The position numbers and the translations under genes are program-made. Below, piece by piece: positions 1 through 53,443 of a DNA stretch of 64,000 bases (the stretch's first letter is position 1; the number at the start of each line of letters is the position of its first letter). The notes under the pieces are model-generated. The model ran no database searches. It was not told the DNA's origin and saw only the letters and a list, made by a program, of their open reading frames with translations. Source of the DNA: a virus; the IMG/VR virus record IMGVR_UViG_3300049893_000773, positions 1-64,000 of that record. One strand, written 5' to 3'.

Positions 1-837
1 ACCTTCATGATCCCTGGGGCAGATGATTATGCTGTTTCTGGCAGTCCATTCTCTGTGACCCAGAGCTTCGATGCCCCCTACAAGGTTGCAACCACCCAGT
101 TCGTTAATGACCTCGGGTCAGTTACACCTGGATTTGTAACCCTGCGAGATTACCTCCCAATTGGGCTTTTCCAGGTAGCTGGGCAGAACTCGACGGGTTC
201 GATTGTGGACAGCCTGAACGGTATCAGTCCTGATGATCTCAGCCTCCGTCCAAGCACCACGGGCCGGTACACGATCCTTCAAAGGACCGGGGACAACAGC
301 TCGAACCAAGTCGTCTTCTTCAACATTCCCAATCTGTACTATGGAATGAAGATCGAACCTGGGAGCCTTGTTCTGCGGGATACCAGCTTCTCTGGGTCCG
401 CGGGCAAGATGGAGTTCACCATCCGAGATGATGGAGAGGGTAACCTCTACCGTTCCAACACTTCTGGTTCCTCTCCTGATTGGGCGAGCCTGGGAAATGT
501 GTTCTACAACGAGGGTGTGGTCCTCTTGAAACACCCATCCTTGTACTTCTTCGGGAAAGATCAGTTCGAACTGACCTTCCAGGGACACCAGAACACCCAC
601 ATCTTGACCTTCAACCTTGCCAAGCGTGCTCAGATGGTAGTTTCTTCAAGTAGCCCCAACTACTTGCCGGTTTCTGCCTCGGATAATGCCAATGACACGG
701 ACCAGCGCTTCGTCTATATCACAGGTATCAACCTGCATGATGACAACCTGAACGTGATCACCCGTACAGCTTTGGCTCAACCAATTGTTGCAAGGACGGG
801 GGACAAATTCCTGTTCAAGGTCAGGATGGACTTCTAA
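1..837 (+). CDS. C-terminal part of a virion structural protein (5' truncated)
   Basis: The frame is open from the first base, before the first ATG at 7, so the gene very probably begins outside the window. At least 276 residues are visible. The product is rich in Ser, Asn, Gly, Phe and aromatic beta-strand patterns, with no catalytic motif. It ends in alternating hydrophobic residues, as in phage baseplate or tail proteins. It lies on the same strand as the late genes and converges with the minus-strand gene whose stop is at 834, overlapping it by four bases. The structural role is inferred from composition and from the surrounding virion genes; the exact protein is not recognised. Confidence 0.7.
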   Translation, partial: TFMIPGADDYAVSGSPFSVTQSFDAPYKVATTQFVNDLGSVTPGFVTLRDYLPIGLFQVAGQNSTGSIVDSLNGISPDDLSLRPSTTGRYTILQRTGDNSSNQVVFFNIPNLYYGMKIEPGSLVLRDTSFSGSAGKMEFTIRDDGEGNLYRSNTSGSSPDWASLGNVFYNEGVVLLKHPSLYFFGKDQFELTFQGHQNTHILTFNLAKRAQMVVSSSSPNYLPVSASDNANDTDQRFVYITGINLHDDNLNVITRTALAQPIVARTGDKFLFKVRMDF

Positions 838-1214
838 AAGTCCATGTAGTCGTCGTAGCCATTCATCACGCTGTCTTCGGCCACTGCCACTTCGGCCTTG
901 CGGATCAATTCCTCTTCGCTGAGAGTTGGCTCCCCCATCTCCATGCGGATATGGTTCTCTTGGGCAAGAAGCTCCACAACGGAGATTGGTGTCCCATCAA
1001 GGGCAAATTCATCAATCTCGATCTCCTCGGGTTCTTCTGGAGACATGTATGTCCCCTTTCTCCCAGGAATGATCCGAGCAGAGACTTGCACCGGGCCAAC
1101 TTCAAGTCCTTGCATGGTCACGGTCACATAGCCTTTGCCAGCAATCATTTCGTGGAGACTACGCTTCACTGCTTCGTGGATCAAGGTTGCTAGCTGCTTT
1201 TTCGTTGTTTTCAT
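834..1214 (-). CDS. Small acidic protein with N-terminal capsid-targeting-like helix
   Basis: The 126-residue product begins MKTTKKQLATLIHEAVKRSL, matching the recurring MK...L..(I/V)xEAV helix of this genome, including an I-H-E site of the type cut by T4-type prohead proteases. The rest is acidic (a run of Glu/Pro near residue 65) and unrecognised. The ATG at 1214 was chosen over an upstream ATG at 1280 because it starts exactly at the shared motif and a TAGTTA late-promoter-like element lies 8 nt upstream. It converges with the structural gene ending at 837. A virion-internal role is inferred from the tag only. Confidence 0.65.
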   Translation of the reverse strand: MKTTKKQLATLIHEAVKRSLHEMIAGKGYVTVTMQGLEVGPVQVSARIIPGRKGTYMSPEEPEEIEIDEFALDGTPISVVELLAQENHIRMEMGEPTLSEEELIRKAEVAVAEDSVMNGYDDYMDF

Positions 1215-1222
1215 TTCTTTTC

Positions 1223-1228
1223 TAACTA
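1223..1228 (-). promoter_or_regulatory. Putative late promoter TAGTTA
   Basis: TAGTTA on the minus strand, 8 nt before the ATG at 1214. It is one of about twenty TAnTTA elements found upstream of late genes in this window. Confidence 0.4.
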
Positions 1229-1238
1229 TCCCCCTTCC

Positions 1239-1264
1239 TTCCTCTCTATGGTTATCTTCCACTG
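1239..1264 (-). repeat. Copy A of a 26-bp inverted repeat pair
   Basis: Read on the minus strand, this stretch begins CAGTGGAAGATAACCA. It matches 22303-22328 (plus strand) over 26 bases with one mismatch, followed in both copies by a G run and a TAnTTA element. It is upstream of the gene at 834-1214. Function unknown. Confidence 0.6.
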
Positions 1265-1315
1265 TGAAAAGAGTTCTCATTTTCCTTTGCTGCCTCCCTC
1301 AGCCATACTCCCATC

Positions 1316-2367: not shown

Positions 2368-2373
2368 CAACGC

Positions 2374-3396: not shown

Positions 3397-3399
3397 GCA

Positions 3400-3636
3400 A
3401 TGTCAAAGTGGCATAAACGTGTGATTATCCAGGGAAAACTTGGTGAGTTGTCGAAGGTGGAGGAAGAGCTGGAAGAGGCTTTTGACGCTGAGGAGCGAGG
3501 ACAAACGCTTATGCTCCTATTCGAGCTTTCCGACATCATTGGTGCTTGCGGTCTTGTTGCGGCCAAGTACGGCTTGTCGCTGGATGACCTTGTGAAGTTC
3601 TCCAAGCTCAGAAGCGAGGTGGCGAAAAATGGTTGA
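3400..3636 (+). CDS. MazG-like all-alpha NTP pyrophosphatase
   Basis: A 78-residue all-helical protein. ELSKVEEELEEAF gives the E-x-x-E metal-binding pair and LFELSDIIGA gives the second E...D pair of the MazG/HisE nucleotide pyrophosphohydrolase fold, followed by YGLSLDDL, which is common in this family. It is shorter than a full MazG domain (about 100 residues) but keeps the core helices. It would hydrolyse a nucleoside triphosphate to the monophosphate; the substrate cannot be read from sequence. Its stop overlaps the start of the next gene by 8 nt, so the two are co-translated. Confidence 0.65.
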   Translation: MSKWHKRVIIQGKLGELSKVEEELEEAFDAEERGQTLMLLFELSDIIGACGLVAAKYGLSLDDLVKFSKLRSEVAKNG

Positions 3637-22336: not shown

Positions 22337-23311
22337 TTACTTAATAGACTGAATAGTCTTGATCCCAGCCTCCAACTCAGCCTTGGCTTCAGGGTACTGA
22401 GCGGCTAGCTCCTGCATCTTCTTAATCCAGAACTCCTTGTAGGTCTCCTTGAGCTTTGGGACCATAGCCTGGGCCACCACCGGATTGTCCTGGGGAGGGA
22501 CTTGTCCGCTCTGGTTGAGTTGCTTCAAGGATTGTCCAATTTGAGCAAATCCCGCGTCGTTCTTGGCAAACTTCCTCATTTGGTCATAGGTCTGGGCAGA
22601 GAGGAAGCGCTTGACGTGGTTGACGATCACATTCACCCCATCGGTACGCATTTGCTTTGCCAAGGGACTCTCCTGAAAGGCGGCTTGAACTTTCTTGTCC
22701 CGCAGCACCTTCTGGATTGCAGCAGCATCTCCCTTGTCACCCTTGGCTTCAGTGACCCAGCCATCATCAGCGTAGCCACCACCTTGGGTTGCCCAGGCTC
22801 CAGCTTGGTGTCCACCTGGATCATGGAACCCAACGGAGGCGACACCGGAGAGAGCCTTCTGAACGTCCTTGAAGATGCCAGAGTCTCCCAGGAAGATCCC
22901 AAGGACCTTCAGGGCCATTGCAGGAACCTTGGCGGCTAGCTGGCCTGCCAGGACAGTGCTTGGGGCAAGGAGGAAAGCAAGACCGAAGGCATCATTGGAG
23001 GTGATAGCGTCCAGGTTGGCTTGGAGGGTCTTGCTGTACTTGTCTTTGATCTTCTCAACGATCTGAGCTTCGTCTTCCCGGAAGGACTCGTAGTCATACT
23101 CCAGGAAGGGGACGAAGAGGGTGGGCAGACCGTAGATGAACCCCTTCAGGACCGTTTGAACTTGAGCAGACAATTTTTCGATACCGTATGCGGCTGTGAT
23201 CCCCACATCGACAAAAGGTTGGATGAACGTGTTGTAAAGCTCGTTCTCAGCTTCAAGGAGAGCTTCGACCAGCTCTCGGATTTCTTTGTTTTTCGAACCT
23301 TGCTGCTTCAT
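22337..23311 (-). CDS. Probable internal virion protein, 324 residues
   Basis: The ATG at 23311 is used because it follows a CCTACTTAAC late element and begins MKQQGSKNKEIRELVEALLE, a helix like the other targeting-type N termini. Hydrophobic segments follow (ITAAYGIEKLSAQVQ, FGLAFLLAPSTVLAGQLAAK, VPAMALKVLGIFLG), then a Gly-rich stretch and long helices rich in Gln/Lys. The mixture of amphipathic and membrane-like segments suits an ejected or head-internal protein. No enzymatic motif is recognised. This role is inferred. Confidence 0.6.
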   Translation of the reverse strand: MKQQGSKNKEIRELVEALLEAENELYNTFIQPFVDVGITAAYGIEKLSAQVQTVLKGFIYGLPTLFVPFLEYDYESFREDEAQIVEKIKDKYSKTLQANLDAITSNDAFGLAFLLAPSTVLAGQLAAKVPAMALKVLGIFLGDSGIFKDVQKALSGVASVGFHDPGGHQAGAWATQGGGYADDGWVTEAKGDKGDAAAIQKVLRDKKVQAAFQESPLAKQMRTDGVNVIVNHVKRFLSAQTYDQMRKFAKNDAGFAQIGQSLKQLNQSGQVPPQDNPVVAQAMVPKLKETYKEFWIKKMQELAAQYPEAKAELEAGIKTIQSIK

Positions 23312-25987: not shown

Positions 25988-26866
25988 ATGTTGAAGTCCC
26001 CTACTTTGAAGCACAACAAGAAGCGAAATGTCGGCCTCCTGAACGAGTTCTTTGCTCGTTACATTGCCAAGGCCATCCTCGAAAAGCGTGATGGGGACAT
26101 TGAGAAGGCGAAAGCCCTCTACGCTCGTCACTTTCAAAAGGGGACGGAGATAAGCCGGGAACTTCGGTTGTTCACCAATCTCTTTGAGACTCGTGTGGAA
26201 TCGAGGGAGGCAGCATTCTCCTTGCTCAACCAAGTGAAGGAAGCATGCAAGCTTCAATCCCAGGCACGTATTGACCTGGAGAAGACAGCCCTTCTCCATG
26301 AGATCAATCAGACCTTCGGGGAGTGCAACTTTTTCGATCAGGAGATTGCTGAGTACAGAGAGTATGCCACGGTTCAGGTGTTGCTCAACCACTGGCGTGG
26401 TCGTGTGGTGACTGAGAACCTGAGTGAAGCTGTCCAGTTGGAAGACAAGCTGGTTCTACGTCTCACCAGCAAGTCTCCTGTCGTTGAAAGCAAGTCCTTG
26501 GAAATGCAGGAATCCGAGGTTGATGGTTTGGTTGTCAACCTGATGATCCAGAAGTTCAACCAAAAGTTCGGGTCGATGTTGAACGAGGAGCAGAAGAAGC
26601 TCCTCCGACTGTACGTCTTCTCCAAGGACAATGCCAATGCCAAGGAAGAACTCGTTCGTCTCTTGGAGGGACTCAAGGAGAAGTCTTCCAAGATGATCGA
26701 CACTGCTATGGCCAAGGACAAGGATGCTCAGAGGGTGAAGCCAAAGCTCCTGGAAGTCAAGCAGATGCTTCAAGAGACCTACCAAGACACATCTGCACCA
26801 GATGACTCCTTGGTAACCTTCTACATGTCCATCTCCAAGCTGAATGAGGAACTCTCCAATGAGTAA
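25988..26866 (+). CDS. Head-module helical protein between portal and protease
   Basis: 292 residues, almost entirely alpha-helical with long charged helices (VKEACKLQSQARIDLEKTALL, MIQKFNQKFGSMLNEEQKKLL, VRLLEGLKEKSSKMI). No Cys clusters or active-site motif. The position between portal and prohead protease is that of small prohead core genes in T4 (67, 68). A role in the assembly core or as a chaperone is inferred from place and composition only. The stop overlaps the protease start by eight bases. Confidence 0.65.
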   Translation: MLKSPTLKHNKKRNVGLLNEFFARYIAKAILEKRDGDIEKAKALYARHFQKGTEISRELRLFTNLFETRVESREAAFSLLNQVKEACKLQSQARIDLEKTALLHEINQTFGECNFFDQEIAEYREYATVQVLLNHWRGRVVTENLSEAVQLEDKLVLRLTSKSPVVESKSLEMQESEVDGLVVNLMIQKFNQKFGSMLNEEQKKLLRLYVFSKDNANAKEELVRLLEGLKEKSSKMIDTAMAKDKDAQRVKPKLLEVKQMLQETYQDTSAPDDSLVTFYMSISKLNEELSNE

Positions 26867-27479
26867 GCTGCTTTTGCAAGAATTTGCCCAGTTCGACTAC
26901 AAGAAACCAACCGACGAGGAAGGCAAGCCACGTCTTTCCAAGTACGGGAACATCCTTGTAAAGGGAGTCATTCAGCGTGCTGACGCCCTTAACCAGAATG
27001 GTAGGGTCTATCCAAGGCACATCCTTGAGAGGGAAGTTCGCAACTACATGACCCTGGTCAAGGAACGCAGGGCTACCGGAGAGCTCGACCACGCAGATTC
27101 TCCAACCGTCAACCTCCAGAACGCTTCCCACATTATCACGGATATTTGGTGGGAAGGCAATGACCTCTGGGGTGAGATCGAGGTTCTTGAGGACCTTGAT
27201 CAAGGAAGGAACCTCAAAGGACTCCTGAAGAACGATGTGAAGGTTGGAATCTCCTCCCGTGCTCTTGGAAGCGTGCAGAGGCTTGGGGAAACCAATGTGG
27301 TTCAAGAGGACCTTTACCTTGTGTGCTGGGACATTGTTTCCGAGCCGTCCACCCACGGTGCATTCATGATGCAAGAAGCCAAGAGCTATTCCGACGAGGA
27401 AGTGCGTCGAATCATGAGCAAATCTGACCGTATTGACCGTGCCGCTAATGAAGTCCTGGCCCTGAAAGGAAGGCGCTGA
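26859..27479 (+). CDS. Prohead core protease (T4 gp21-like)
   Basis: 206 residues from ATG 26859 (MSKLLLQEFAQFDYKKPT), with GAGGAA upstream. The herpes/T4-type serine protease core is seen: VKGVIQRADALNQNGRVYP, GELDHADSPTVNLQNASHII with the catalytic His, GNDLWGEIEVLED, and KVGISSRALGSV with the catalytic Ser. It should mature the capsid and internal proteins by cutting after (I/L/V)-x-E. Such sites occur in the capsid protein N terminus and in the targeting-like helices of this genome. It is followed directly by a tagged protein gene. Confidence 0.9.
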   Translation: MSKLLLQEFAQFDYKKPTDEEGKPRLSKYGNILVKGVIQRADALNQNGRVYPRHILEREVRNYMTLVKERRATGELDHADSPTVNLQNASHIITDIWWEGNDLWGEIEVLEDLDQGRNLKGLLKNDVKVGISSRALGSVQRLGETNVVQEDLYLVCWDIVSEPSTHGAFMMQEAKSYSDEEVRRIMSKSDRIDRAANEVLALKGRR

Positions 27480-27898
27480 TGAAATTGACTCGTTCTGCGT
27501 TGAAATCAATCATTAAAGAATGTCTCCTTGAGTTGGCCGAAGAGGGTAAGTTGCAAATTGAGGGTATTAGCTCCCCAAATTTGAACGAAATCAAGAATCC
27601 GCAAGCAGGCAACTCCGACAATCTTGGAAATCCTCGCTTGCAGCAAGCAATTGACATGACGACAAGGCTGCTCGCCAAGGGTGATCCCGGCAAAGCTGCC
27701 ATGTACGAGTCCATCATTGCAGATACCGCTCGTACAACGCTTCAAAAGCAACTTGCGGCTACATCTTCTGGGGCTGGCACCTTGGTTGAGAGTGCCGTCT
27801 CCCCTGAAGAGCGTCAATATGACCAAGCACAACTTGGACAATTCGAGGCAAAGGACCGCTGGTCTATCCTGGCTTTTGCCAAGAAGCCGAAAAGCTAG
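27479..27898 (+). CDS. Tagged head-module protein, 139 residues
   Basis: Starts MKLTRSALKSIIKECLLELA, one of the clearest targeting-like helices, with a cleavage-type I-K-E. The remainder is Gln/Ala/Ser-rich, helical and soluble-looking. It overlaps the protease stop by one base, so it is made together with the enzyme that may process it. Probably an internal or core protein of the prohead; this is inference from tag and location. Confidence 0.7.
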   Translation: MKLTRSALKSIIKECLLELAEEGKLQIEGISSPNLNEIKNPQAGNSDNLGNPRLQQAIDMTTRLLAKGDPGKAAMYESIIADTARTTLQKQLAATSSGAGTLVESAVSPEERQYDQAQLGQFEAKDRWSILAFAKKPKS

Positions 27899-28451: not shown

Positions 28452-30530
28452 ATGTCGTCAATTTTCGAAGAAGCGTTGCTTGAGGCAAAGAAACTGCGTC
28501 AAGTAGCTGAAGAGGATGCAAAAAACACCCTCATTCAAGAAATGACCCCTGTGATCCGCAAGATGATCACGAACCAGCTTGCAGGCAAGTCCAGCGTTCT
28601 CTTCGAAGAGGAATTGCCTGCTGACCCAACAGCGTCCCCAGAAGCCCCTGTAGAGCCAGCAATGGACCCTGCGGGCTCTGCCATGCCTGCGGCTGCACCT
28701 GTTCCTGTTGAGCCGCCTGCGAGCGGTGCTGCTGACGCACCTATTAAGGTGTCGGGCGCAGAAGTCATGAACATGCCAATGCCTGGACCAGATGGCAAGC
28801 TGGTAATTGACTTGGACGATCTTTTCGTTCCGGCAGAGCCAGGAGCGGAGACGCCTGATGAGGGTTCTGCTTCTGCCGAAGCTCCTCCAGCAATGCCCGG
28901 TGGGATGCCATCGCCAACTCCAGTGGATGTGAACCCAAGTGGTTCGGCACCAGAAGAAGCACCAGCCCCAGAGGCTCCGGCTGCCCCTGTGGAGCCGGTT
29001 GCCACGGCAGGAGCCGAAGAGGTTCCGCCTCCCCCAGAGGAGCCAGCAATGGAGGAAACCTACGAGCTTTTTGCCGAGGAGCTAAAGACCACGGCTGATC
29101 GCATTCACCAAGCCTATTCCTCCAAGGTTGGAGTTCCATCCCTTGTGAAGGAAGCTCTTCAGGAAAAACTCTATCAGCTTCTTGAATCCCTGGAATCGTT
29201 GAGCCGCAGAAACATGGTTTCTGAGCGTCTCACCCAAATCCAAGAGAGCCGTTTGGAGATTTTGCACCGCAAACTGAAAGAAGCAGTTGTCGCTAATACT
29301 TATCACAGAACAGAAGAAGGAACCGGAACTGACATGGCAAGCAAGTCGCTCAAGGAAATGGCTGCAAAGATGCTCGCAGAGAGCGCTTCGGTTGAGGGTG
29401 GTCCCGTCAAGTCTCCCGCTGATGTCCACAAGACAGAGGTGACGATGAAGGTTGACAACTCGCAGGAACAGGCTGCTGACAAGGCAGGAGCCCACGCTAT
29501 GAAGGTTACGGAGCCTACTGTGACCCTCAAGACGGAATCGGCTGAAGCACAGGCTCAGGCTGCTCTTGCTGAGGAGCTTGCCGCTCTTGTTGCCGAGGGT
29601 TCTGGCGAGTCGCTTGCAGCCAAGGATGGGGAGCAGGATCTTGCTGGTGCTGCTTCGTCGATTCCTGACAAGAAGGTTGGTCAAGTGGACCCAACGAAGA
29701 GCACGGCTGCAAGCAAGACCAATCCAGCTTCGCACGTTCAGGGTGTTGCAGAGTCGGTTGCTGTTTCGAGCAAGGCTCTTGCAGAGCAGACCAAGAAGAT
29801 CAAGGCAGAAGCCTTGAAGAAGCAGATTGCCGCCCTTCAGGAGCAACTGAAGGAATGCGGGATGCCAATGGAGGGCGATGCCCTTCCTGCGCCAGGAGCC
29901 CCAGCAATGGGTGTGATGGGCGAGGAAGATACGGTCATCAACTTCAACTTCGACCTCGCTGATCTTCTGCCAGGACTTTCGGATCTTGGCGATGAAGACG
30001 AGATTGACATTGTGGGCGACGAGCCATCTGACGAGCCAAGCACCTTGGGCCCTGTGGGCGGTGCTGAACCAGAGGGTGACGACGCTGACGACCTTGAGCT
30101 TGCCGATGAGGACGAGCCAGAGGTTTCGCAACTTGCAGAGGGCAGGAAGTCCGGCAAGGGTGCGGGCAAGATTGTAGCGGAGAACAAGGATCTCCGTTCG
30201 CAACTTGCAACCGAGAAGCTGTTCAACGCAAAGATGGTTCATTTCCAGCCTTTCGTTAACAATCCAAATCTGACCAAGCAACAGAAGCACAAAATTGCGG
30301 AGCACCTGGACAGAGGAACATCGCTTGAAGAAGTGAAGGCAATCTACAACCGCGTGAAGGTTGTGGTGGAGAACATGCAGAAGGTCTCTTCGAAGGCAGG
30401 AAGCTCTTCGAAGCCGGGTGTGACCCCTGCATCGACTCTCAGCGAGTCTGCCAACCCATACGAGGGATCGACCCTGGTGGAAGCAGAAAAGAATCGTTTG
30501 ATGCAACTTGCTGGAATCAAGCGCAAGTGA
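28452..30530 (+). CDS. Prohead core/scaffold protein (T4 gp22 analogue)
   Basis: 692 residues. N-terminal helix FEEALLEAKKLRQVAEEDAK, then about 150 residues rich in Pro, Ala and Glu, a coiled-coil middle with repeated Ala/Glu/Lys segments, an acidic Asp/Glu run (about 510-560), and a conserved end LFNAKMVHFQPF...LTKQQKHKIAEHLDRG..LEEVKAIYN, closing with LMQLAGIK. The acidic helical composition and the place just before the capsid gene match the T4 scaffold gp22, which is cleaved to peptides by gp21. It is more than twice the size of gp22 (about 270 residues). Confidence 0.75.
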   Translation: MSSIFEEALLEAKKLRQVAEEDAKNTLIQEMTPVIRKMITNQLAGKSSVLFEEELPADPTASPEAPVEPAMDPAGSAMPAAAPVPVEPPASGAADAPIKVSGAEVMNMPMPGPDGKLVIDLDDLFVPAEPGAETPDEGSASAEAPPAMPGGMPSPTPVDVNPSGSAPEEAPAPEAPAAPVEPVATAGAEEVPPPPEEPAMEETYELFAEELKTTADRIHQAYSSKVGVPSLVKEALQEKLYQLLESLESLSRRNMVSERLTQIQESRLEILHRKLKEAVVANTYHRTEEGTGTDMASKSLKEMAAKMLAESASVEGGPVKSPADVHKTEVTMKVDNSQEQAADKAGAHAMKVTEPTVTLKTESAEAQAQAALAEELAALVAEGSGESLAAKDGEQDLAGAASSIPDKKVGQVDPTKSTAASKTNPASHVQGVAESVAVSSKALAEQTKKIKAEALKKQIAALQEQLKECGMPMEGDALPAPGAPAMGVMGEEDTVINFNFDLADLLPGLSDLGDEDEIDIVGDEPSDEPSTLGPVGGAEPEGDDADDLELADEDEPEVSQLAEGRKSGKGAGKIVAENKDLRSQLATEKLFNAKMVHFQPFVNNPNLTKQQKHKIAEHLDRGTSLEEVKAIYNRVKVVVENMQKVSSKAGSSSKPGVTPASTLSESANPYEGSTLVEAEKNRLMQLAGIKRK

Positions 30531-30565: not shown

Positions 30566-32479
30566 ATGAAAACTTTCTCTCTTTCGCAATTGGCAGAAGG
30601 CGTAAACCGCCGCTCGCTTGGTGCTGATGCGCCAAGGCTTCTGTCCAAGTGGTCTGCAACCGGACTTCTTGAGGGACTTGGTGGTATGCAGAAGGAGACG
30701 CTCTCGCGCCTTCTGGAGAACCAAGTGGCCCAGCTCATTCAGGAGTCCAACGCCATCTCGACGGGTGGTGCATCTCTGACCTCCTCGGGTCAGATTGCAG
30801 GCTTCTCGAACGTTGCCTTCCCTATCGTTCGTAGGGTCTTCGCTGGCCTCGTTGCCAACGAAGTGGTTTCGGTTCAGCCAATGAGCCTTCCTTCGGGACT
30901 GCTCTTCTACTTGGATTACACCTACGGCTCGAACGTTGGTGGTGATGCAGGTCTGAGCCTCTCGACCTCGGCAACGGCTGACACCTACAAGAGGGCAACC
31001 TCGGTGTACGGTCTTCCAACTGGAGCCTCGATCCGTTCGGGTGCAACTCCTGCTGGTGGCCAGTACGACCTCGTGGGTCACGGCTTCTCCAAGGTTCACA
31101 AGGGTGCTCTGAACATCACTGGCTCTACGGACTCGGTGGGTTACTGGCTCTCGGGCTCGACCTGGACAACGGGCACCTCGGCTGTCGTGGCAGCTTCGGC
31201 TGACTGGACCGGCTACAACGCCCGCTACGCTGGGTTCCGCCAGGACATCCAGAATGGTCTTGACAACGGCGACTTCGACTACTGCTTCATGTTCATCTCG
31301 GCCTCCGAGTTGGCAGGCAAGATTTCGGGTCTCGATCTGAACGCTCTTGACCAAATCTCGATCACTGGTTTCGGTTCGGCAGCAAACTCTGTGACCGCTT
31401 GGGGCGACAGCTTCCAGGGTGGTCTTGGAGTCCTGAACCTCCGCGCTCTGAACAAGCGTGGTGACTGGAACGCAGCCGCAGGTACCTTCACCCCAAACCC
31501 ACTCGGCGGAAGCCACGTGTTGTTTGTGCTGAAGATCGCCAACGCAGGCACGGCTCCACAGCCAACCGGCGTGGCTTCGACCTACATCTCTGGCTCGGCA
31601 GCAATTGCAGACGCTCTTTCGGTTGGTTCGGAGGGCACGACCCTTACGGTCCCATCGTTCGAAACGGACTTCGCAGTTGACTCCTCGCCAAGGATTCCAG
31701 AGGTTGACATCAAGATCGAGGGTGTCTCGGTCACTGCAACGACCCGCAAGCTCCGTGCTCGTTGGTCGCCAGAGATGGCACAGGACCTTACGGCCTTCTA
31801 CTCCATCGACGTGGAAGTGGAACTCACAAATATCCTGTCCGAGATGATCACGCTCGACATCGACCGCGAAATCTTGAACGATCTCCTCACACAGGCCACA
31901 GCAGCAAACCTGTTCTGGTCGCGTGCTCCAGGACGCATCGTCAACAAGACCACTGGTCAGGAAGCTCTCCACAACAACGTCTTGGCCCCAGGCCCACAGT
32001 TCTTCGGAAATGTGCGTGAGTGGTACGAGACGCTCATGGAGACGATCACGGATGCAGCCAACACGATTCACAGGAAGACCCTCCGTGGTTCGGGTAACTT
32101 CATCGTCACGTCGCCAGACGTGGCAACGATCTTCGAGCACCTTGTGGCCTACAAGCCAGCATACAAGGTTGACTCCGATGGTCAGGTGAAGGAGTCGATG
32201 ACGATTGGCGCAGAGGCAATCGGCACGCTCAACAACCGCTACGTGGTCTACAAGGACCCTTACTTCCCACAGAACAAGATTCTGATTGGTTTGAAGGGCA
32301 ACACCTTCCTGGAGTCGGGATACATCTACGCTCCATACGTTCCACTCATCTTGACTCCTGTGATCTACGCACAGGAGGACTTCACTCCTCGCAAGGGTGT
32401 GATGACCCGCTACGGTAAGAAGATGGTCCGTGCTGACTTCTACGCCACTGTGACCGTGCTCGACATGGCCCTCATCTGA
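30566..32479 (+). CDS. Major capsid protein (T4 gp23-like)
   Basis: 637 residues. A 60-residue N-terminal delta region beginning MKTFSLSQLAEGVNRR ends at LIQE-S, a probable prohead-protease site. Then comes FPIVRRVFAGLVANEVVSVQPM, the HK97-like N-arm/E-loop start. The long helix RARWSPEMAQDLTAFYSIDVEVEL leads into VNILSE/LDIDREIL-type segments, and the P/A domain holds FFGNVREWYETLMETITDAAN and TSPDVATIFEHL. It ends in TVTVLDMALI. It is longer than T4 gp23 (521 residues) because of inserted beta-rich segments near 180-340. Ser TCG and Pro CCA codons are prominent, as in the sheath genes, which suits high expression. Confidence 0.95.
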   Translation: MKTFSLSQLAEGVNRRSLGADAPRLLSKWSATGLLEGLGGMQKETLSRLLENQVAQLIQESNAISTGGASLTSSGQIAGFSNVAFPIVRRVFAGLVANEVVSVQPMSLPSGLLFYLDYTYGSNVGGDAGLSLSTSATADTYKRATSVYGLPTGASIRSGATPAGGQYDLVGHGFSKVHKGALNITGSTDSVGYWLSGSTWTTGTSAVVAASADWTGYNARYAGFRQDIQNGLDNGDFDYCFMFISASELAGKISGLDLNALDQISITGFGSAANSVTAWGDSFQGGLGVLNLRALNKRGDWNAAAGTFTPNPLGGSHVLFVLKIANAGTAPQPTGVASTYISGSAAIADALSVGSEGTTLTVPSFETDFAVDSSPRIPEVDIKIEGVSVTATTRKLRARWSPEMAQDLTAFYSIDVEVELTNILSEMITLDIDREILNDLLTQATAANLFWSRAPGRIVNKTTGQEALHNNVLAPGPQFFGNVREWYETLMETITDAANTIHRKTLRGSGNFIVTSPDVATIFEHLVAYKPAYKVDSDGQVKESMTIGAEAIGTLNNRYVVYKDPYFPQNKILIGLKGNTFLESGYIYAPYVPLILTPVIYAQEDFTPRKGVMTRYGKKMVRADFYATVTVLDMALI

Positions 32480-34115: not shown

Positions 34116-35183
34116 ATGGACCTTCGTTTCCGAGAAGAATGCTACGGCCACAGTGGTGGTCAAACCGATTGCTCTCTATACGCCCTTCTAGGCGACGAAG
34201 TGATCGGGAAGGTAGATATCGCCTACCACCGAAATGGTGGCCGTAGAGAGGCGTATATCAAGATGATCGAAGTGCAGCCTAATTTCCAGGGGAAAGGGGT
34301 TGGCAAGGCTTTGATCTATAAGTTGGCCAGTCAAATCCCTTACGAGGCGATTGATTGGGGGATGACCACGCCTGAAGGTGGGGCATTGAAGCAGGCAATG
34401 GACCGGGAGTTTGGAACATCCTACGTTCCACCTGAGCCCGAGCCAGACATGGATGACCCCAAGTACGCTGACGACCTCAGTGGCGAAAGGTATTTTGCCG
34501 ACCTAAAGGTTTGGCGGCAAAAGCAAGGGTACGTGGATGAGGCTAATTACCACGGAAAGGGAATGGAAAGAATGAAAGTCAAGGACCTCAAGAAGCTGGT
34601 TGCCGAGAGTGTAGCCGCTGCTGTGAAAGAAGCCGGATATGACCAGTACGGGGAGGGTGTGTCGCAACCTACGGAGCCAAGCTGGTTCGACACGCTGATG
34701 GCCCCTGATGAGCCTGCACCTGAACTCAAGGGCACGCCAGAAGCCAGGAAGCTGGTTGATGCGGCCAAATTGATGTTGAAGAAGGCTGGTCCAAAGATTG
34801 ACAAGGAAGTCATGAGCCAAGTCTCTGCTGAGTTGGAGCACAACTTCAACCTCCCAGACGGGGTAAGCTGGGAAGTGGTCCATGCTGCCTTTGAGGAGCT
34901 CAAGAGTGACATGCTTTCCGAGGCTCCACCAGAGGGATGGCACGGGACTGTGCGGGCCATGAAGACCCATGGACACACTGGCAAGGGTGGGGAGATCGAC
35001 AACCCATACGCCTTGGCACACTACATGGCAAACAAGGGGGATGAGCCTCACTACAAGGAGCAGCCAACCTCCAAGAAGGGTACTCCTGTGAAGAAGAAGG
35101 AGTACATGAAGACGGAAGCCTTCGTTGATTTGGTCCGTCAGATGATCCGCGAGGAGATCCTGAATCTCCGCAAGGGGAAGTGA
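34116..35183 (+). CDS. GNAT acetyltransferase domain joined to a tagged internal-type protein
   Basis: 355 residues. Residues 1-105 are a GNAT fold with IKMIEVQPNFQGKGVGKALI, the acetyl-CoA Q-x-x-G-x-G loop. From residue 153 (ATG 34572, GGAAAG just upstream) a typical tag MKVKDLKKLVAESVAAAV starts a second module of about 200 residues, and the C terminus has another such helix (VDLVRQMIREEILNL). The gene could give a full-length protein and, from the internal start, a separate tagged protein. Acetylation target unknown. It ends just before another tagged gene. Confidence 0.75.
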   Translation: MDLRFREECYGHSGGQTDCSLYALLGDEVIGKVDIAYHRNGGRREAYIKMIEVQPNFQGKGVGKALIYKLASQIPYEAIDWGMTTPEGGALKQAMDREFGTSYVPPEPEPDMDDPKYADDLSGERYFADLKVWRQKQGYVDEANYHGKGMERMKVKDLKKLVAESVAAAVKEAGYDQYGEGVSQPTEPSWFDTLMAPDEPAPELKGTPEARKLVDAAKLMLKKAGPKIDKEVMSQVSAELEHNFNLPDGVSWEVVHAAFEELKSDMLSEAPPEGWHGTVRAMKTHGHTGKGGEIDNPYALAHYMANKGDEPHYKEQPTSKKGTPVKKKEYMKTEAFVDLVRQMIREEILNLRKGK

Positions 35184-35185: not shown

Positions 35186-35560
35186 ATGGCAAAGCAGATC
35201 ATGAGCATTGAAGCGTTCGAGCAGTTGGTGCGGGAGTACATTCAGGAAGCTGTACGAGAGGAGATGCTCAAGGATCTTGCCAGGGTGCAGGAAGGTACTG
35301 CTGGAACACTCTCCACGACCTCTTCTACCTCGACCACTGGGACTTCTGGGACAACTGCGACGACTGGTACCAAGTCGAGCATTGGTTCCAATCCTGGCAA
35401 TGCCGACCCGGCAAACAACGTAATGGTCCCAGGGACAAACATGAACATCAATCAAGGTCTTCAGGCTGCTGCGAAGGAAACCAACTTCAAGAAGAAGGCC
35501 GAACTTGTAAACAAGATGTCCACCCAAATTCAGGGAATGAAGGGCCTCGTTATCAAATAA
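35186..35560 (+). CDS. Tagged protein with Thr/Ser-rich linker
   Basis: 124 residues from ATG 35186, preceded by AAGGGGAAG. The N terminus AFEQLVREYIQEAVREEM is a tag-type helix with V-R-E and I-Q-E sites. A 30-residue linker of Thr, Ser and Gly and a Lys-rich helical end follow. Its tag is nearly the same as the C-terminal helix of the gene before it (LVRQMIREEI), pointing to local duplication. Probably a virion-internal protein. Confidence 0.65.
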   Translation: MAKQIMSIEAFEQLVREYIQEAVREEMLKDLARVQEGTAGTLSTTSSTSTTGTSGTTATTGTKSSIGSNPGNADPANNVMVPGTNMNINQGLQAAAKETNFKKKAELVNKMSTQIQGMKGLVIK

Positions 35561-45730: not shown

Positions 45731-46519
45731 ATGAGCAAAGTAAAGGAAAGTAGGTTGCCTGTTCAGTTTATCAAGCCCGGTGACATTCGGGCCATGGTAA
45801 ATTGGCTTGAGCTTCCCCAGAACCATGATGCGGCAGTCAATGCAATCGCAGTGGTTCCTGATTCGCGACGCGATTCTGCCTTCGTGGATTTCTTGGCTTC
45901 TTCCCCAGCATTTCAGGGGTGGGAATACAATCAAATTGCCCACGCAGTAGATCAAGCCAATGAAATGGATCTAATGGAGACGAAAATGAAACAGAGCGAA
46001 CTGAAGAAGATGGTATCGGAAGCCGTAAAGGGCGGAATCCGCAAGGCAATGCAAGAGAACAAGAGCAAGCCAAAGGCACGGATCACCAAGACCGCTCTGG
46101 CTGAGGCTGTCCGCAAGGCAGTTCGTGCTTCTCTTCAGGAGATGGGCATGCCAGGGGCCGCAATGCCTCCAGCGGGCAAGCCAGCCGGTGCAGCAATGAC
46201 TGCTCCAACCCAGGAGGGTGTTTCGGACGGTGATCCAAAGAGAGGAAGTTCCACCTTTGGTCAGCTTCCTTCTCCAGAGGAGCTTCAAATGGCCATTGAC
46301 GAGCTTGGTGGCTGGTCGATGACCCTTCGCGGCTCGGATGCTCGTTCTTTCGATGCAGCAATGGCTCAAGCGGGCATGGACTCGGGCGAAGCAGAGATGA
46401 TGATGGATACCGGAGAGGGTATGCACAAGGTCATTTCCGCTCTCATGGATTCTGGCGATGAGAATGCTGAGAGCCTTGCCTCTGGCATCATGGACGTTCT
46501 TGGCTGGGAGTGGATCTGA
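45731..46519 (+). CDS. Unknown N-terminal domain joined to a tagged protein
   Basis: 262 residues. Residues 1-85 (FIKPGDIRAMVNWLELPQNH...) are an unrecognised small domain. At residue 86 an ATG (45986) preceded by GGAGACGAAA opens MKQSELKKMVSEAVKGGIRK, the standard tag with V-S-E. A second tag-like helix follows (ALAEAVRKAVRASLQEM). The rest is Ala/Met/Asp-rich. The gene may give both a full-length and an internally started product. It sits between sheath and tube genes. Confidence 0.65.
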   Translation: MSKVKESRLPVQFIKPGDIRAMVNWLELPQNHDAAVNAIAVVPDSRRDSAFVDFLASSPAFQGWEYNQIAHAVDQANEMDLMETKMKQSELKKMVSEAVKGGIRKAMQENKSKPKARITKTALAEAVRKAVRASLQEMGMPGAAMPPAGKPAGAAMTAPTQEGVSDGDPKRGSSTFGQLPSPEELQMAIDELGGWSMTLRGSDARSFDAAMAQAGMDSGEAEMMMDTGEGMHKVISALMDSGDENAESLASGIMDVLGWEWI

Positions 46520-46809
46520 TGAAGGTCAAAGACCTGAAAGCAATGATCCAAGAAGCCGTGCAGAAGGCTTTGAAGGAAGAGATGGATCGTCCGGTAGACG
46601 CCTCCGACCTGGATGACGCTACTCAGCTTTTGATGTTGATTTCCGGTCGAATCATGTCTGCTCACGGCAAAGATGTGCCTGCCAAGGCAATTCAGGCTGC
46701 AATTCACCACATCGAACAGGCCGATGGAATTCTCGCAGCAGCCGGTTTGAAAGCAGACGAAGCTGATGTGCGCGGAATTGCTGAGTCAAAGGGCCAGCAA
46801 AAAAGATAA
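46519..46809 (+). CDS. Tagged small helical protein
   Basis: 96 residues beginning MKVKDLKAMIQEAVQKAL, nearly identical to the internal tag of the GNAT gene (MKVKDLKKLVAESV). The start overlaps the previous stop (TGATG). Helical throughout, with Ala-rich segments AIQAAIHHIEQADGILAAAG. A packaged head protein is inferred, although the gene lies in the tail region. Confidence 0.65.
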   Translation: MKVKDLKAMIQEAVQKALKEEMDRPVDASDLDDATQLLMLISGRIMSAHGKDVPAKAIQAAIHHIEQADGILAAAGLKADEADVRGIAESKGQQKR

Positions 46810-47330: not shown

Positions 47331-47332
47331 GA

Positions 47333-48329: not shown

Positions 48330-48788
48330 ATGATGAAAGAGCTTGAGGAGTTTATTCTTGAATTTGCTCGCAGGGAAGTCAAAAAAGCCCTGGACGAGGA
48401 CAAGAAGTATTACCGCAAATCCAAGTGGCACCCGGATAACCTCCGTCTGGGGAACAAGAACCTGGATATGGATGCCCACAAGAGCAAGCAAGAACACGAG
48501 ATGGCCTTGCTCAAGTCTCAGGTGACGGCTGTACTCCAAGCGATCGAGGAGTATCCCCCACCAGAGGTGCTGGTCACTGACCCAAAGACCAAGAGGCAGG
48601 AGCAAGTCCCTGACACGAAGTCCAAGCAGTTGGCCGTGGAAACCGCAGCAAAGGTCCTTAAAGGCATCACCACCCCAAAGAAGAACATCCACGCCCTAGC
48701 TGTGTACATCGTCGCTCTTGGCATCTTCCCCAGGGTTCCTTTCACCTCCTTGGTGCGTGCCCTGGTTGAAATTTTCGAAAAGCGATAA
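48330..48788 (+). CDS. Hypothetical protein with tag-type N-terminal helix
   Basis: 152 residues. It starts MMKELEEFILEFARREVKKA, which fits the tag pattern (I-L-E followed by an aromatic instead of Ala). Next is a Lys-rich segment with a Trp-His-Pro, then two helices and a hydrophobic end ALAVYIVALGIFPRVPF. Not recognised. The location between tube and tape-measure-chaperone genes is usually occupied by tail genes, but the tag argues for a head-internal protein. Confidence 0.6.
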   Translation: MMKELEEFILEFARREVKKALDEDKKYYRKSKWHPDNLRLGNKNLDMDAHKSKQEHEMALLKSQVTAVLQAIEEYPPPEVLVTDPKTKRQEQVPDTKSKQLAVETAAKVLKGITTPKKNIHALAVYIVALGIFPRVPFTSLVRALVEIFEKR

Positions 48789-50031: not shown

Positions 50032-50043
50032 CTGAGGAATCCA

Positions 50044-50751
50044 ATGGCATCATCTCCCCTTCACGAATACATCAAGGCGGCTATTGAGCTCTATCTTCTT
50101 GAAGACTTCGATGCCTCAACGAAGCCTGTAAGAAAGCCAGGAACCACTGCACCTCCCGCCCAACAGCAGACCTTCAACTTCAACGAGTTTCGTGCTCTGA
50201 AGGACCTGGATTCCGTTCTTGAGTATGTCAAGAAGACCTTGGGACGTTCTCTCCTTGGAGAGGGACAAGGACGGCTTGTCTACAGCCTTGGCAATGGCCG
50301 GGTGTTGAAGGTTGCCAAGGATCAAGGGGGAGTTGGCCAGAACCAGAGCGAGGCGAATGTGTGCGCCAGTTCGGCTGATGTTGTGACCTTGTTCCCCAAG
50401 GTTTTCGAGAGCAGCCCTTCGCACTTTTGGCTTGTCACGGAAGAAGCCAAGCCAATGACCGAGGAAGCCTTCAAGACCCTGACAGGACTTCCCTGGAGGA
50501 TGTTCTGGTCCGCTCTCAAGGGAGCCTTTGCTGGGAAAGCCTCGAATGTCACCCAAGCAGACCAACAGAACTACGCCCAGGCTTCGGCAAATCAGTTTTT
50601 CGCCAGAGTCGTCAAGGCAATTCGAGATTGCAGGTATGAGCCGGGTGATATTGCCAAGCTGGATTCCTGGGGAATTGTTGGAGGCAAGCCTGTAATCATC
50701 GACTCCGGGTTTACGGAAGCTGTGAACAAGGCTTACTATTCCAACGGCTAG
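50044..50751 (+). CDS. Kinase-fold-like protein B with tag-type N terminus
   Basis: 235 residues, paralogue of the gene at 37586. N-terminal helix LHEYIKAAIELYLLED, a Pro/Gln linker, then LGEGQGRLVYSLGNGRVLKVAKDQGGVGQNQSEAN, HFWLVTEEAKP (hinge) and DIAKLDSWGIVGGKPVIIDSGFTEAV. Loop, lysine, helix-C Glu and DSG are shared by both copies. The active-site HxD is not evident. Tag and late expression suggest a packaged effector, but this is inference. Confidence 0.6.
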   Translation: MASSPLHEYIKAAIELYLLEDFDASTKPVRKPGTTAPPAQQQTFNFNEFRALKDLDSVLEYVKKTLGRSLLGEGQGRLVYSLGNGRVLKVAKDQGGVGQNQSEANVCASSADVVTLFPKVFESSPSHFWLVTEEAKPMTEEAFKTLTGLPWRMFWSALKGAFAGKASNVTQADQQNYAQASANQFFARVVKAIRDCRYEPGDIAKLDSWGIVGGKPVIIDSGFTEAVNKAYYSNG

Positions 50752-50798
50752 GCAGCGGTAGTGGCAACATCTCTGCCAGGAAGTAGCATCTTACACCA

Positions 50799-51368: not shown

Positions 51369-51433
51369 CTTTTTGGATAACAGCTTTACGCTTATCCTGT
51401 CAAGTCCATTTCCCCACCATTCTTAGGACTGCT

Positions 51434-52108
51434 ATGGAAGATAATCTGCAAGCCATCCTTGTCGCCAAGCTGAAGAACGAAAAGAGCAAGCTCTTTGAGG
51501 GCTCTCTGAACCGTATCATGTCTCACGTCAACAAGGCGAAGGAGGAGGGATTTGCAATTCTCACTTCCTGGCGTCAGTCCAACGACAAGAAGACCAATCT
51601 GGCGAACTTCCAGGCCCTACAAAGCTTCGTTCGAGCCAAGGGGCTGGGGTACATTCAGCTACGTGGACACTGGCGGGAATGCCAAGATACCTCCGTCCCC
51701 TACGATCAATGCCCTCCAGAGGAGCTTCTTGACATCGTTGAGCCCTCCTTGATGGTGTTCAAGATCGACCTGGAAACGGCAACCCGGCTGGGAAAGCACT
51801 TTGACCAGGATGCCGTTGTCTATGCTGGTCCAGAAACGGGTGGGCAGGTTCACCTTCAATTCAAGAACGGCGAAACCATGGACCTTGGCTCGTTCAACCC
51901 AATGACCATTGGACAGGCATACTCGGAGTACCGTTCCAAGCAAGACAAGGACCTCAAGAAGGGTCAATTGCCACGGGCAGAACGACACTTCACCTTCGAA
52001 GGGTACAGTTATCCCGCTCAATCCTTCATTGAGAAGCTTGCCGAGGCTGCTATTGAGAAGAACATTCGCCTTCTAAACGAAGGGCTTGAATCACTTCCAA
52101 AGAAGTAG
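51434..52108 (+). CDS. Conserved phage hypothetical protein (LTSWR...GYIQLRGHW type)
   Basis: 224 residues from ATG 51434. The pattern GFAILTSWRQ, GLGYIQLRGHWRE, FDQDAVVYAGPETGGQVHL, LGSFNPMTIGQAYSEYR and a late FTFEGYSYP is one I associate with a family of uncharacterised phage proteins. The conserved Arg, Trp, Asp and Tyr positions suggest ligand or nucleic-acid binding. It ends next to the convergent NUDIX gene. No function is assigned. Confidence 0.65.
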   Translation: MEDNLQAILVAKLKNEKSKLFEGSLNRIMSHVNKAKEEGFAILTSWRQSNDKKTNLANFQALQSFVRAKGLGYIQLRGHWRECQDTSVPYDQCPPEELLDIVEPSLMVFKIDLETATRLGKHFDQDAVVYAGPETGGQVHLQFKNGETMDLGSFNPMTIGQAYSEYRSKQDKDLKKGQLPRAERHFTFEGYSYPAQSFIEKLAEAAIEKNIRLLNEGLESLPKK

Positions 52109-52111
52109 CGC

Positions 52112-52660
52112 TCAAAGCTTCCCGATGTAGTCGAGCCCCATGTAGCCAAGCTCGAATCCACGGATTTCCCCGGTTTTCATCTTCATTCTGAAGTCCCTGA
52201 GCGGCATCTTGAGAATGGTAACGAATTCATTGGGGTCAAGCTTCTGACGATCCAGCTTCTTGGCATTGATCACCAGGACGCAGTGACGCCAGCCAGTGGA
52301 GTATGGGGAGTATGGGAGCTTTCCAAGATACGTGGCATCTCCAACGTACCCTGTCTCCTCCCTTAGCTCTCGGACGCCGCCCTCAAGTGGATTCTCCCCA
52401 ACGTCCAATCCCCCACCTGGGAGTTCCAACTCCATGCGTTCCTGACCCGGACGGAACTGTTGCACAAGGACAACATCGGCTTCGATCCCAGGCTCAGGCT
52501 TGGTGATGCACAGGACTTGGACCGAATCCTTGCCAACGTCCACAAAGAAGGTTTCCTCCAGCCCATTTGGAAGCTGGAAGGTCTTTACGGCGATCCTCTT
52601 GTGGAAGCCATCAGGGTGCACCAGCTTCAGAACTTTCTGTAGGAGCTTTTGGAACGGCAT
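52112..52660 (-). CDS. NUDIX hydrolase (ADP-ribose pyrophosphatase-like)
   Basis: 182 residues. The NUDIX box is complete: GGLDVGENPLEGGVRELREE followed by TGY (G-x5-E-x7-R-E-x2-E-E-x-G). The upstream strand VVLVQQFRPGQERMELELPGG resembles ADP-ribose pyrophosphatases. Possible substrates are ADP-ribose, NADH or mRNA 5' ends; sequence cannot tell. A minus-strand CCTATTTAAC lies 11 nt before the ATG. Confidence 0.9.
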   Translation of the reverse strand: MPFQKLLQKVLKLVHPDGFHKRIAVKTFQLPNGLEETFFVDVGKDSVQVLCITKPEPGIEADVVLVQQFRPGQERMELELPGGGLDVGENPLEGGVRELREETGYVGDATYLGKLPYSPYSTGWRHCVLVINAKKLDRQKLDPNEFVTILKMPLRDFRMKMKTGEIRGFELGYMGLDYIGKL

Positions 52661-52671
52661 TTGTTTGCTGT

Positions 52672-52677
52672 TAAATA
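52672..52677 (-). promoter_or_regulatory. Putative late promoter TATTTA of the NUDIX gene
   Basis: Minus-strand CCTATTTAAC, 11 nt upstream of the ATG at 52660. No clear Shine-Dalgarno. Confidence 0.45.
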
Positions 52678-52762
52678 GGTCAAACCACCATCTTGGTACG
52701 GCATAATTGCCTTACAGTCTTCGCAACCTATTCCTCAAATACACGTCCCGATAGTCATGATC

Positions 52763-53443
52763 CTACTGAACCTTGCCGGAACGAACAGCGTTGGCAACCT
52801 TCTGAACGAAGCCGCCGAGTGACTGGTTGAAGGCTGCAAGCATGTTCAGGTCTTGCTTGCGCTGCATTGCCTTGACGAGAGCCTTGAGGGATTCCAAAAG
52901 TTGGTCGGCCTCCTTCACAGCTTGATCAAGCTTGACGGAATTCCTGATTTCAATGTCGCCACGGTCATATTCCTTCAATGCCTTGGCAACGCTTTCCTGG
53001 ATGAGTTTGACGAGATCGGACTTCTTCATTTTTTGCTCCTGCATTCCTTTGTAAACTAGGTGCCATGTCGGGACTTTCAGTCCAAAGCCACTGGCAACAT
53101 TCACTCTTCCCCTGCCATCCCCAATTTGAGTCATTTCTGGCGTTGTGATGACCACAATTGGAGGGATCTTGCCTGCTTTGAGCCACTTAGCAGCCATCAC
53201 ACCCCATTTGGGCCCACGAAACTGACCAAGCTCCGCAACCTTCTCCTCGTCGGACATTCCCTGGAAGGTGTCGGGGCGCAAGTCAAGCCAAGCATCCACG
53301 TCGTCGTACTGGCGAAGGTCATCAACTGAGAGGTCTCCCAGGAATTCCAAGTTGAAGTCTTCCAGCGACAACGGCTCATTGCTGAAATCCGATGCGTGGT
53401 CAATGGCATCAAGAAGGTCTTTCTGGGAGGGCTTCTCGTCCAT
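52763..53443 (-). CDS. ParB/sulfiredoxin-like domain joined to a tagged protein
   Basis: 226 residues. Residues 60-135 show KWLKAGKIPPIVVITTPE then IGDGRGRVNVASGFGLKVPT, close to the G-D-G-(R/H)-x-R motif of ParB N-terminal and sulfiredoxin-like domains, which use it for CTP or ATP binding. At residue 139 an ATG (53029) with AGGAG seven bases upstream begins MKKSDLVKLIQESVAKAL, a full tag with I-Q-E-S. An internally started, 87-residue tagged protein is therefore likely besides the long form. Confidence 0.65.
   Translation of the reverse strand: MDEKPSQKDLLDAIDHASDFSNEPLSLEDFNLEFLGDLSVDDLRQYDDVDAWLDLRPDTFQGMSDEEKVAELGQFRGPKWGVMAAKWLKAGKIPPIVVITTPEMTQIGDGRGRVNVASGFGLKVPTWHLVYKGMQEQKMKKSDLVKLIQESVAKALKEYDRGDIEIRNSVKLDQAVKEADQLLESLKALVKAMQRKQDLNMLAAFNQSLGGFVQKVANAVRSGKVQ

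Follow-up and report, generated by a model that had tools for sequence, protein, structure and literature searches.

A little-studied group of T4-related phages appears, judging from sequence, to mark numerous proteins that are otherwise unrelated with a short head address that can be removed. In the window (the whole 64,000-nt stretch analysed, most of the 87.7-kb contig IMGVR_UViG_3300049893_000773), these class-1 tags belong to a conserved family that is linked to the structural-gene block and has the same cut-site pattern as the capsid protein. We consider it probable that the tags are modular capsid-targeting propeptides, a variant of the T4 capsid-targeting sequence (CTS).

Head genes and tagged genes of the window

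The source phage, which carries gp20-, gp21- and gp23-family genes, is probably a far-T4-type myovirus. The best matches of the major capsid protein are LR756508, immuto, Mel-JY01, LR756511 and RM378, ahead of every other record, and those of the protease g039 are Mel-JY01 and immuto (match order only in both cases); RM378 is described as a far-T4 reference phage in the available text of PMC4360716. The gp21-like protease that an earlier sequence-only reading had placed at 26859 was borne out by family search as g039 (Table 1). The protein in the scaffold position, g042, gave no family match, and megablast of the head region returned no match. The predicted processing site of the capsid protein g043, LIQE60/S61 (slash, cut), aligns with T4 FLTE65/A66 in a MAFFT column.

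Table 1. Tags, tag-like helices and head genes of the window, with the basis of each assignment
Feature	Gene	Position	Strand	Basis
Class-1 tag MKVKDLKAMIQEAVQKALKEEM	g055 (46519-46809), start	46519..46584	+	held-out profile 32.3
Class-1 tag MKQSELKKMVSEAVKGGIRKAM	g054 (ORF 45731/45755-46519), inside, in-frame ATG	45986..46051	+	held-out profile 25.9
Second, weaker tag-like helix ITKTALAEAVRKAVRASLQEMG	g054	46082..46147	+	sequence, no score of its own
Class-1 tag MKKSDLVKLIQESVAKALKEYD	g065 (52763-53443), inside, in-frame ATG	52964..53029	-	held-out profile 24.0
Class-1 tag MSIEAFEQLVREYIQEAVREEM	g047 (35186-35560), near start	35201..35266	+	held-out profile 20.3
Class-1 tag MKVKDLKKLVAESVAAAVKEAG	g046 (34116-35183), inside, after GNAT domain	34572..34637	+	held-out profile 19.8
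Tag-like C-terminal helix VDLVRQMIREEILNLRKGK	g046	35124..35180	+	likeness to G085 tag of a separate gene
Putative diverged class-1 tag MKLTRSALKSIIKECLLELAEEGK	g040 (27479-27898), start; between protease and scaffold	27479..27550	+	orthologs and gene slot
Borderline class-1 tag MKTTKKQLATLIHEAVKRSLHE	g002 (834-1280), in-frame ATG	1149..1214	-	held-out profile 14.2, P about 1e-3
gp21-family prohead protease	g039	26859..27479	+	phrog_207 head maturation protease, E 1.7e-47
Protein in scaffold position	g042	28452..30530	+	gene order (protease, g042, capsid) and shared C-terminal motif
C-terminal peptide RLMQLAGIKRK	g042	30495-30527	+	motif in common with scaffold C-termini
Major capsid protein	g043	30566..32479	+	phrog_138, E 5.5e-70

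A profile from other phages recovers five of the tags

The sequence-only reading had proposed a family of ten T4-CTS-like peptides, each with an I/V-x-E. All ten are present where it placed them, and nine hold the motif, the peptide at 23311 having L-x-E only. To scan the window we used a held-out profile, built from 12 tags of other phages and no window tags, with a cut-off of 15.8, the level reached by 1 in 5000 shuffled proteins. It recovered g046, g047, g054, g055 and g065; g002 is borderline, just below the cut-off, and g040 lies well below it (score 5.3, P 0.03). K13-E14-C15 and E18 of the g040 tag are invariant in five orthologs, and its standing as a putative tag bearer rests on these orthologs and on gene position. 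The helices listed at 48330 (MKELEEFILEFARREV, in g058, 48333..48398, +) and 23311 (IRELVEALLEAENEL, in g036, 23246..23311, -) found no support and fall outside the 16 window proteins that score best with the profile.

All five recovered tags lie in the 23.3-66 kb structural-gene block, whose limits were set by the analyst; 5 of its 35 genes are tagged and none of the 68 genes outside it (Fisher P=0.0037). The pattern L..[LIMVY][IV].E[ASCE][VIL], which was composed after the tags were known and in a form slightly broader as run than as written, was found 6 times across the 103 called proteins (mean 0.27, maximum 3 in 200 shuffles). In IMG/VR, 117 of 124 among the at least 124 listed matches to the tag DNA pattern open ORFs of at least 40 aa and 111 of 124 follow an in-frame stop at a distance of no more than 15 codons, compared with 20/40 and 23/40 at the 40 loci of a reversed-order control pattern. 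An early DNA pattern gave no match in its own record, and neither did tblastn against phage records, run once with a bare tag and once with 70 aa of one tagged protein.

That the tags are chance look-alikes, amphipathic I-x-E helices of a common sort picked out by a reader, is largely refuted, and we regard it as highly improbable: a profile made without any window tag recovers five window proteins, and the IMG/VR matches listed open ORFs far more often than the control. It does hold for the two helices in g058 and g036, which fail the profile, and the bare motif is indeed uninformative. In the window, [LIV]xE[ASGNTC] occurs at 19/102 N-termini and in residues 31-56 of 12/98 proteins (P=0.24), so that it is not significantly commoner at the N-termini. 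Contigs with gp21 show weak enrichment (residues 3-28, 100/517; residues 31-56, 53/484), but as control contigs are enriched too (90/642 and 64/601), the bare motif was dropped as evidence by itself.

Tag architecture and the cut-like site

The class-1 consensus is L-x-x-[LIM]-[IV]-x-E-[AS], and the tags close in [IV]-x-E followed by a small residue or E. When P3-P1' was hidden from the profile, 38 of 50 new matches still had the E and 45 had I/V/L at P3, although some of those contigs had been chosen by an E-containing pattern. A second L/I-x-E is present in 43 of 59 tags (mean 12.6, maximum 24 in 2000 shuffles), at a place where a preference for hydrophobic residues is built into the profile. 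The processing site of the capsid protein likewise reads h-[IV]-x-E-small, a pattern that recurs across nine aligned capsid junctions; V stands at three of them, so that the position is not L/I alone. The commonest tagged families hold further I/V-x-E sites in a variable linker, in 60 of 91 members (mean 2.6, maximum 9), the members being related and hence not independent.

The tags are N-terminal in g040, g047 and g055; in g002, g046, g054 and g065 each coincides with an in-frame ATG within the called ORF, the last three having their tags mid-way in longer ORFs. GGAG directly precedes the in-frame ATG of g054, and AGGAG lies upstream of that of g065. The G085 ortholog of g065 (52% identity over 90 aa) and the G084 ortholog of g046 (85% identity over residues 153-355) both begin at the tag, which in g046 is preceded by a GNAT domain (Pfam PF00583). 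Relative G085 has a separate gene of 59 aa with a tag close to its start, which passes the masked-column profile only; the helix at the C-terminus of g046 is similar to that tag. In g055, E12 and E20 are invariant in three orthologs, and residues 3-21 form a helix set apart from the rest in an AlphaFold model of low confidence (mean pLDDT 60.7); two AlphaFold models were too weak for fold searches.

Tagged proteins across relatives

In the contigs examined, 59 tagged proteins fall into 42 body clusters, and the seven tagged bodies of the window into seven; PHROGs and Pfam name few of the tagged bodies. Tagged genes occupy the slot between protease and scaffold in several phages and also form long runs that are far from conserved, as in G072, with ten tagged among eleven consecutive genes. 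The cultured Flavobacterium phage immuto has class-1 tags in genes 156, 176 and 190, weaker ones in 175 and 198, two class-2 genes and a gp21-type protease (gene 200). With the held-out profile, Mel-JY01 and RM378 gave no class-1 match while encoding a gp21-type protease, and T4 gave one, internal to a protein and in none of its internal proteins.

The protease family phrog_207 was found in 8 of 43 class-1 contigs (from 120 loci, all 34 that reach 20 kb; the other 9 are shorter and were chosen for other tag bodies) against 1 of 40 controls. At 20 kb or more the figures are 5/34 and 1/19, no clear difference, and as most contigs are fragments the test is weak both ways. G069, with five tagged genes in six, shows neither this protease family nor the capsid family on 56 kb. 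Tags without the protease family also occur in G008 (two matches), where only a chaperonin family was looked up, and in G038 (one match, all-seed profile only), which carries a phrog_213 portal and so is T4-like, its protease perhaps lying off the contig.

Comparison with known targeting sequences

In T4, a short N-terminal peptide is likewise common to unrelated proteins (IPI, IPII, IPIII and Alt, in the available text of PMC9026906 and PMC3012670), with residues 4/7 of the IPIII CTS acting in targeting and 8/10 in processing (PMC9026906); an E-to-D change in IPIII leaves packaging intact and prevents cleavage. Comparison with translated IPII and IPIII places L6/L9 of class 1 at 4/7 and I10/E12 at 8/10, the spacing of Y4-x-x-F7-I8-x-E10-A11, and both systems combine I-x-E before a small residue with a gp21-family protease. 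The proposed likeness to the T4 tag MKTYQEFIAEA stands for spacing and cut-site pattern but not for sequence similarity, as the profile finds no T4 internal protein. Class-1 tags, known here from sequence, are also two residues longer before the core, continue in a longer helix, and mark far more genes, some of them mid-ORF.

The N-terminal signal of P1 DarB is by itself enough for heads to take up a foreign protein, and the authors of PMC9024508 found no consensus among Dar N-termini, unlike the single consensus that class 1 places on many proteins. According to the available parts of PMC5694885, SPN3US gp53 and gp54 have diverged bodies but agree in 15 N-terminal residues and carry an A-x-E site there, and these and the phiKZ propeptides are protease-removed N-terminal stretches on head proteins, as we propose here; giant-phage propeptides have A-x-E/S-x-E and mostly exceed 100 residues, whereas the present tags have I/V-x-E and about 20 residues. 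In the portions available, the T4, P1 and giant-phage CTS literature found does not describe these tags. A literature string search found neither the tag sequences nor the T4 CTS string itself, which makes it a weak negative, and a search by title found no virion proteome of immuto.

Proposed mechanism and alternatives

An amphipathic helix (hydrophobic at L6, L9, I10 and V14) would dock the tagged protein on the prohead core, the shell closing around the core would enclose it, and a gp21-type protease would cut [IV]-x-E/[AS] behind its glutamate, possibly with a second cut at L/I-x-E about eight residues on. Cutting would release the mature protein inside the head, whereas core proteins would be reduced to fragments that leave; proteins with mid-ORF tags would start at their own ATG, or these tags would be cut points between domains. 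We infer docking, packaging, cutting and delivery, and head cargo is likewise a matter of inference because several of the window's tagged genes sit among tail genes. Counting against the capsid-targeting reading are the lack of class-1 matches in Mel-JY01 and RM378, the single T4 match outside its internal proteins, the scarcely enriched bare motif, the unclear co-occurrence of class-1 contigs with the protease, the case of G069, the baseplate neighbours of the commonest tagged families and the three mid-ORF tags of the window.

The tag may instead be an uncut docking helix for the tail, the baseplate or a shared adaptor, its glutamate kept for a salt bridge or a helix face. This would suit g054 and g055, which sit between the sheath and tube genes, the commonest tagged families, which adjoin gp25/gp6-like genes (three loci identified by eye, immuto by annotation), and the mid-ORF tags. 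Against it stand the pattern common to tags and capsid junctions, the extra linker sites and the tags within the protease-scaffold interval, and we hold it unlikely. Tagged genes in that same interval, together with several cut-like sites in one protein, would fit proteins of the prohead core that are degraded and do not persist, with no host cargo, as T4 gp67 and gp68 exemplify (PMC9026906). The diversity of bodies, the long and far from conserved runs of tagged genes and the acetyltransferase domain ahead of one tag speak against this, which makes it an improbable account of the tags as a whole; under the capsid-targeting reading, some tagged proteins may still belong to the core and be degraded instead of reaching the host.

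If capsid targeting is correct, the first 20 residues would suffice to pick out, from a large pool of hypothetical proteins of aquatic T4-type phages, those that are probably packaged in the head; the tags would also serve as additional signals for filling phage heads with chosen proteins and make testable what a capsid-targeting sequence binds.

A second class of tags

A further class, absent from the sequence-only reading, consists of the scaffold C-terminal peptide RMQxLAGI, copied to the start of the proteins in 61 body clusters and in most cases succeeded by a cut-like site. Cargo may in this way imitate the contact that the scaffold makes through its C-terminus. We give about even chances to a two-code scheme of head loading in far-T4-type phages, in which either of two unrelated, removable N-terminal tags, class 1 or class 2 (KRMQxLAGI), would cause dozens of unrelated proteins to be packaged, trimmed by a gp21-type protease and delivered to the host along with the DNA. 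Among 20 of 120 class-2 loci tested, 11 have the protease; by size, it is present in 6/6 contigs above 150 kb (one of which is immuto and one of which has the motif mid-protein), 8/9 above 90 kb and 3/11 smaller ones.

Head genes and phage type

The viral record spans 87,662 bases, of which the window covers 1-64000 and two fetched sequences (L001 and L002) the remainder; a home-made gene caller identified 103 genes in it. Tail sheath genes lie downstream of the head genes. We call the phage far-T4-type, a label drawn from sequence, because the best database matches of its capsid protein are LR756508, immuto, Mel-JY01, LR756511 and RM378. The two genes directly 3' of the capsid gene encode shortened capsid paralogs (blastp against the major capsid protein, 1.5e-11 and 5.6e-26), which end, as the capsid protein does, in a VLDM-type peptide; both genes are also present in a relative, contig G084. 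By eye, two small genes in L002, outside the structural block, have starts resembling the capsid N-terminal arm (KKWRTTGLLEGLSG and YWKNTGLLDN).

Coordinates of head genes and other features in the record
Feature	Position	Strand	Family match
Portal	24044-25900		phrog_213
gp21-family protease	26859-27479		phrog_207, E 1.7e-47
Long protein in scaffold position	28452-30530		none
Major capsid protein	30566-32479		phrog_138
Shortened capsid paralog	32592-33392	+	
Shortened capsid paralog	33431-34078	+	
g050, no known function	37586-38284	+	phrog_4301
g061, similar to g050, no known function	50044-50751	+	
Small gene, capsid-arm-like start	83311-83670		
Small gene, capsid-arm-like start	84397-84780		

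Class-1 tags in the window

The sequence-only reading had proposed that short helices of one type mark at least ten proteins. All ten of its peptides are present in the sequence, and the observation proved real and more extensive than stated; its membership held in part. A held-out profile of the class-1 tag (L-x-x-[LIM]-[IV]-x-E-[AS], an amphipathic helix), trained on 12 tags all of other phages and cut off at the 1-in-5000 shuffle level, placed genes g055, g054, g065, g047 and g046 above shuffle level, g002 just below and g040 well below, and ranked the helices at 48330 and 23311 outside the top 16. The g040 protein was retained as tagged on two grounds: five orthologs conserve its tag, and its gene occupies the protease-scaffold slot, where tagged proteins are found in other phages. 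The five passing tags all fall among the 35 genes of the structural block, with none in the 68 genes elsewhere (P=0.0037, with block limits of our own choice). AlphaFold models of g055 (mean pLDDT 60.7) and g040 (pLDDT 45.4) were weak; that of g055 shows the tag as a separate helix, residues 3-21. The N-terminus of g061 carries a weak tag-like helix (13.0 in the held-out profile).

Three tags, those of g046, g054 and g065, sit mid-ORF and retain Met-Lys. AGGAG precedes the tag ATG of g065 and GGAG that of g054, with only a purine-rich stretch upstream of the g046 tag, and orthologs of g046 (in G084) and g065 (in G085) begin at the tag; internal translation starts at these positions appear likely. 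N-terminal to its tag, g046 encodes a GNAT acetyltransferase domain.

Spread and diversity of tagged proteins

A degenerate DNA pattern for the tag, scanned against IMG/VR, returned at least 124 matches in at least 120 loci. Of the 124 listed, 117 stand at the start of an ORF of 40 aa or longer, and in 111 an in-frame stop lies no more than 15 codons upstream; a reversed-order control pattern gave 40 loci, 20 at the start of such an ORF and 23 with such a stop. Two dominant clusters take in 78 and 18 of the 97 bodies behind the listed tags; outside them, tagged proteins are diverse. Ten tagged genes stand in a run of eleven consecutive genes in contig G072 (65.4-72.4 kb, L218-L219), and five in a run of six in G069. 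By eye, one G072 tagged body holds a HELTH zinc-protease-like motif, another a ParB-like segment, and three have an NPKTGRxIKV segment in common; Pfam named none of the three G072 bodies tried. Across all fetched contigs, 59 tagged proteins, including three from control contigs and those of the near-copies G088 and G089, fell into 42 body clusters once the first 22 residues were cut off (blastp E 1e-3), and the seven tagged bodies of the window into seven.

A second tag class

Variants of [RK]-[MLW]-[QEK]-x-L-A-[GN]-I end the scaffold-position proteins of the window, G084, G085, G058, G063, G106, G107, immuto and Mel-JY01; the corresponding C-terminus in G067 departs from this pattern. The same peptide forms class 2 when it stands at the N-terminus of other proteins, as in G058, G106, G107 and immuto; class-2 genes occupy the protease-scaffold interval in G106, G107 and G058. 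A KRMQxLAGI scan gave at least 104 non-redundant matches (L294-L413). Among the 104 listed, an ORF start is at most 25 residues away in 67 and a C-terminus at most 16 residues away in 24 (one match belongs to both groups); the other 14 lie elsewhere, several close to a likely start. A stricter recount of the listed matches left 23 as C-terminal, and for 20 of these a capsid-type start (GLLEG, in one case GLLKG) lies no more than 700 bases downstream. N-terminal RMQxLAGI marks many small proteins and usually has a cut-like I-x-E behind it; a glutamate follows LAG within a few residues in 51 of the 67 listed. Their bodies are likewise varied (74 in 61 clusters among the matches listed).

Putative cut site and link to the protease

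A profile with columns P3-P1' masked (threshold 1 in 1000 shuffles) found 50 new non-redundant matches, of which 38 keep the glutamate and 45 have I/V/L at P3, both counts inflated because some contigs had been chosen by a glutamate-containing pattern. The residue after E12, the glutamate before the putative cut, is E rather than small in 18 of these 50 tags of other phages. In a MAFFT alignment, the T4 capsid processing site FLTE65|A shares its column with LIQE|S (window, G084, G085), IVSE|A (immuto), LISE|A (Mel-JY01), LVQE|A (G067), LVTE|A (G058) and LITE|G (G063). A second [ILVM]-x-E occurs at tag positions 15-24 in 43 of 59 proteins against a shuffled-tail mean of 12.6 (max 24), an excess partly built in because the profile prefers a hydrophobic residue there; among 91 members of the baseplate-side families, 60 carry another site in their variable linker, compared with a mean of 2.6 (max 9). 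The bare I-x-E motif was uninformative.

Run over six frames, the held-out profile gave 14 class-1 matches in 474 kb of the record and five protease-picked contigs (5 of them in the window) and 37 in 619 kb of seven tag-picked contigs. Five named gp21-type records, 601 kb in total, yielded 10: 4 in immuto, 5 in part of LR756508, 1 (internal) in part of T4, and none in Mel-JY01 or RM378. Eleven contigs without the protease family had 2 matches in 594 kb, and a set made up of lambda, T7, Mu and parts of N4 and SPO1 had 1 in 275 kb. Class 1 therefore marks a subgroup of gp21-type phages. At the level of single contigs, class 1 shows weak co-occurrence with the protease, and large class-2 contigs show good co-occurrence.

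Comparison with the T4 capsid-targeting sequence

In the T4 record, MKTYQEFIAEA begins IPII and IPIII, and IPI deviates. PMC9026906 assigns IPIII residues 4 and 7 to targeting and 8 and 10 to processing, and gives L/I-x-E as the gp21 recognition motif. Class-1 residues L6, L9, I10 and E12 have the same spacing; the layout is alike, but the sequence is not that of T4. This layout suggests that the tags serve as a comparable address, and the best-supported reading is a protease-removed head address that would occur in two forms in far-T4-type phages. Tagged genes also hold tail-side positions, which leaves room for docking outside the head: baseplate genes, recognised by eye as gp25/gp6-like, adjoin dominant-cluster genes in all three loci read, and the tagged immuto gene 156, whose body matches 14 of the 97 listed tagged proteins, stands ahead of annotated baseplate genes.

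Mel-JY01 may use a diverged form of the tag, since the gene 3' of its protease (L183:20676-21140) begins AMYQKIVQEVVREVIAENV, which is tag-like yet below the profile threshold.
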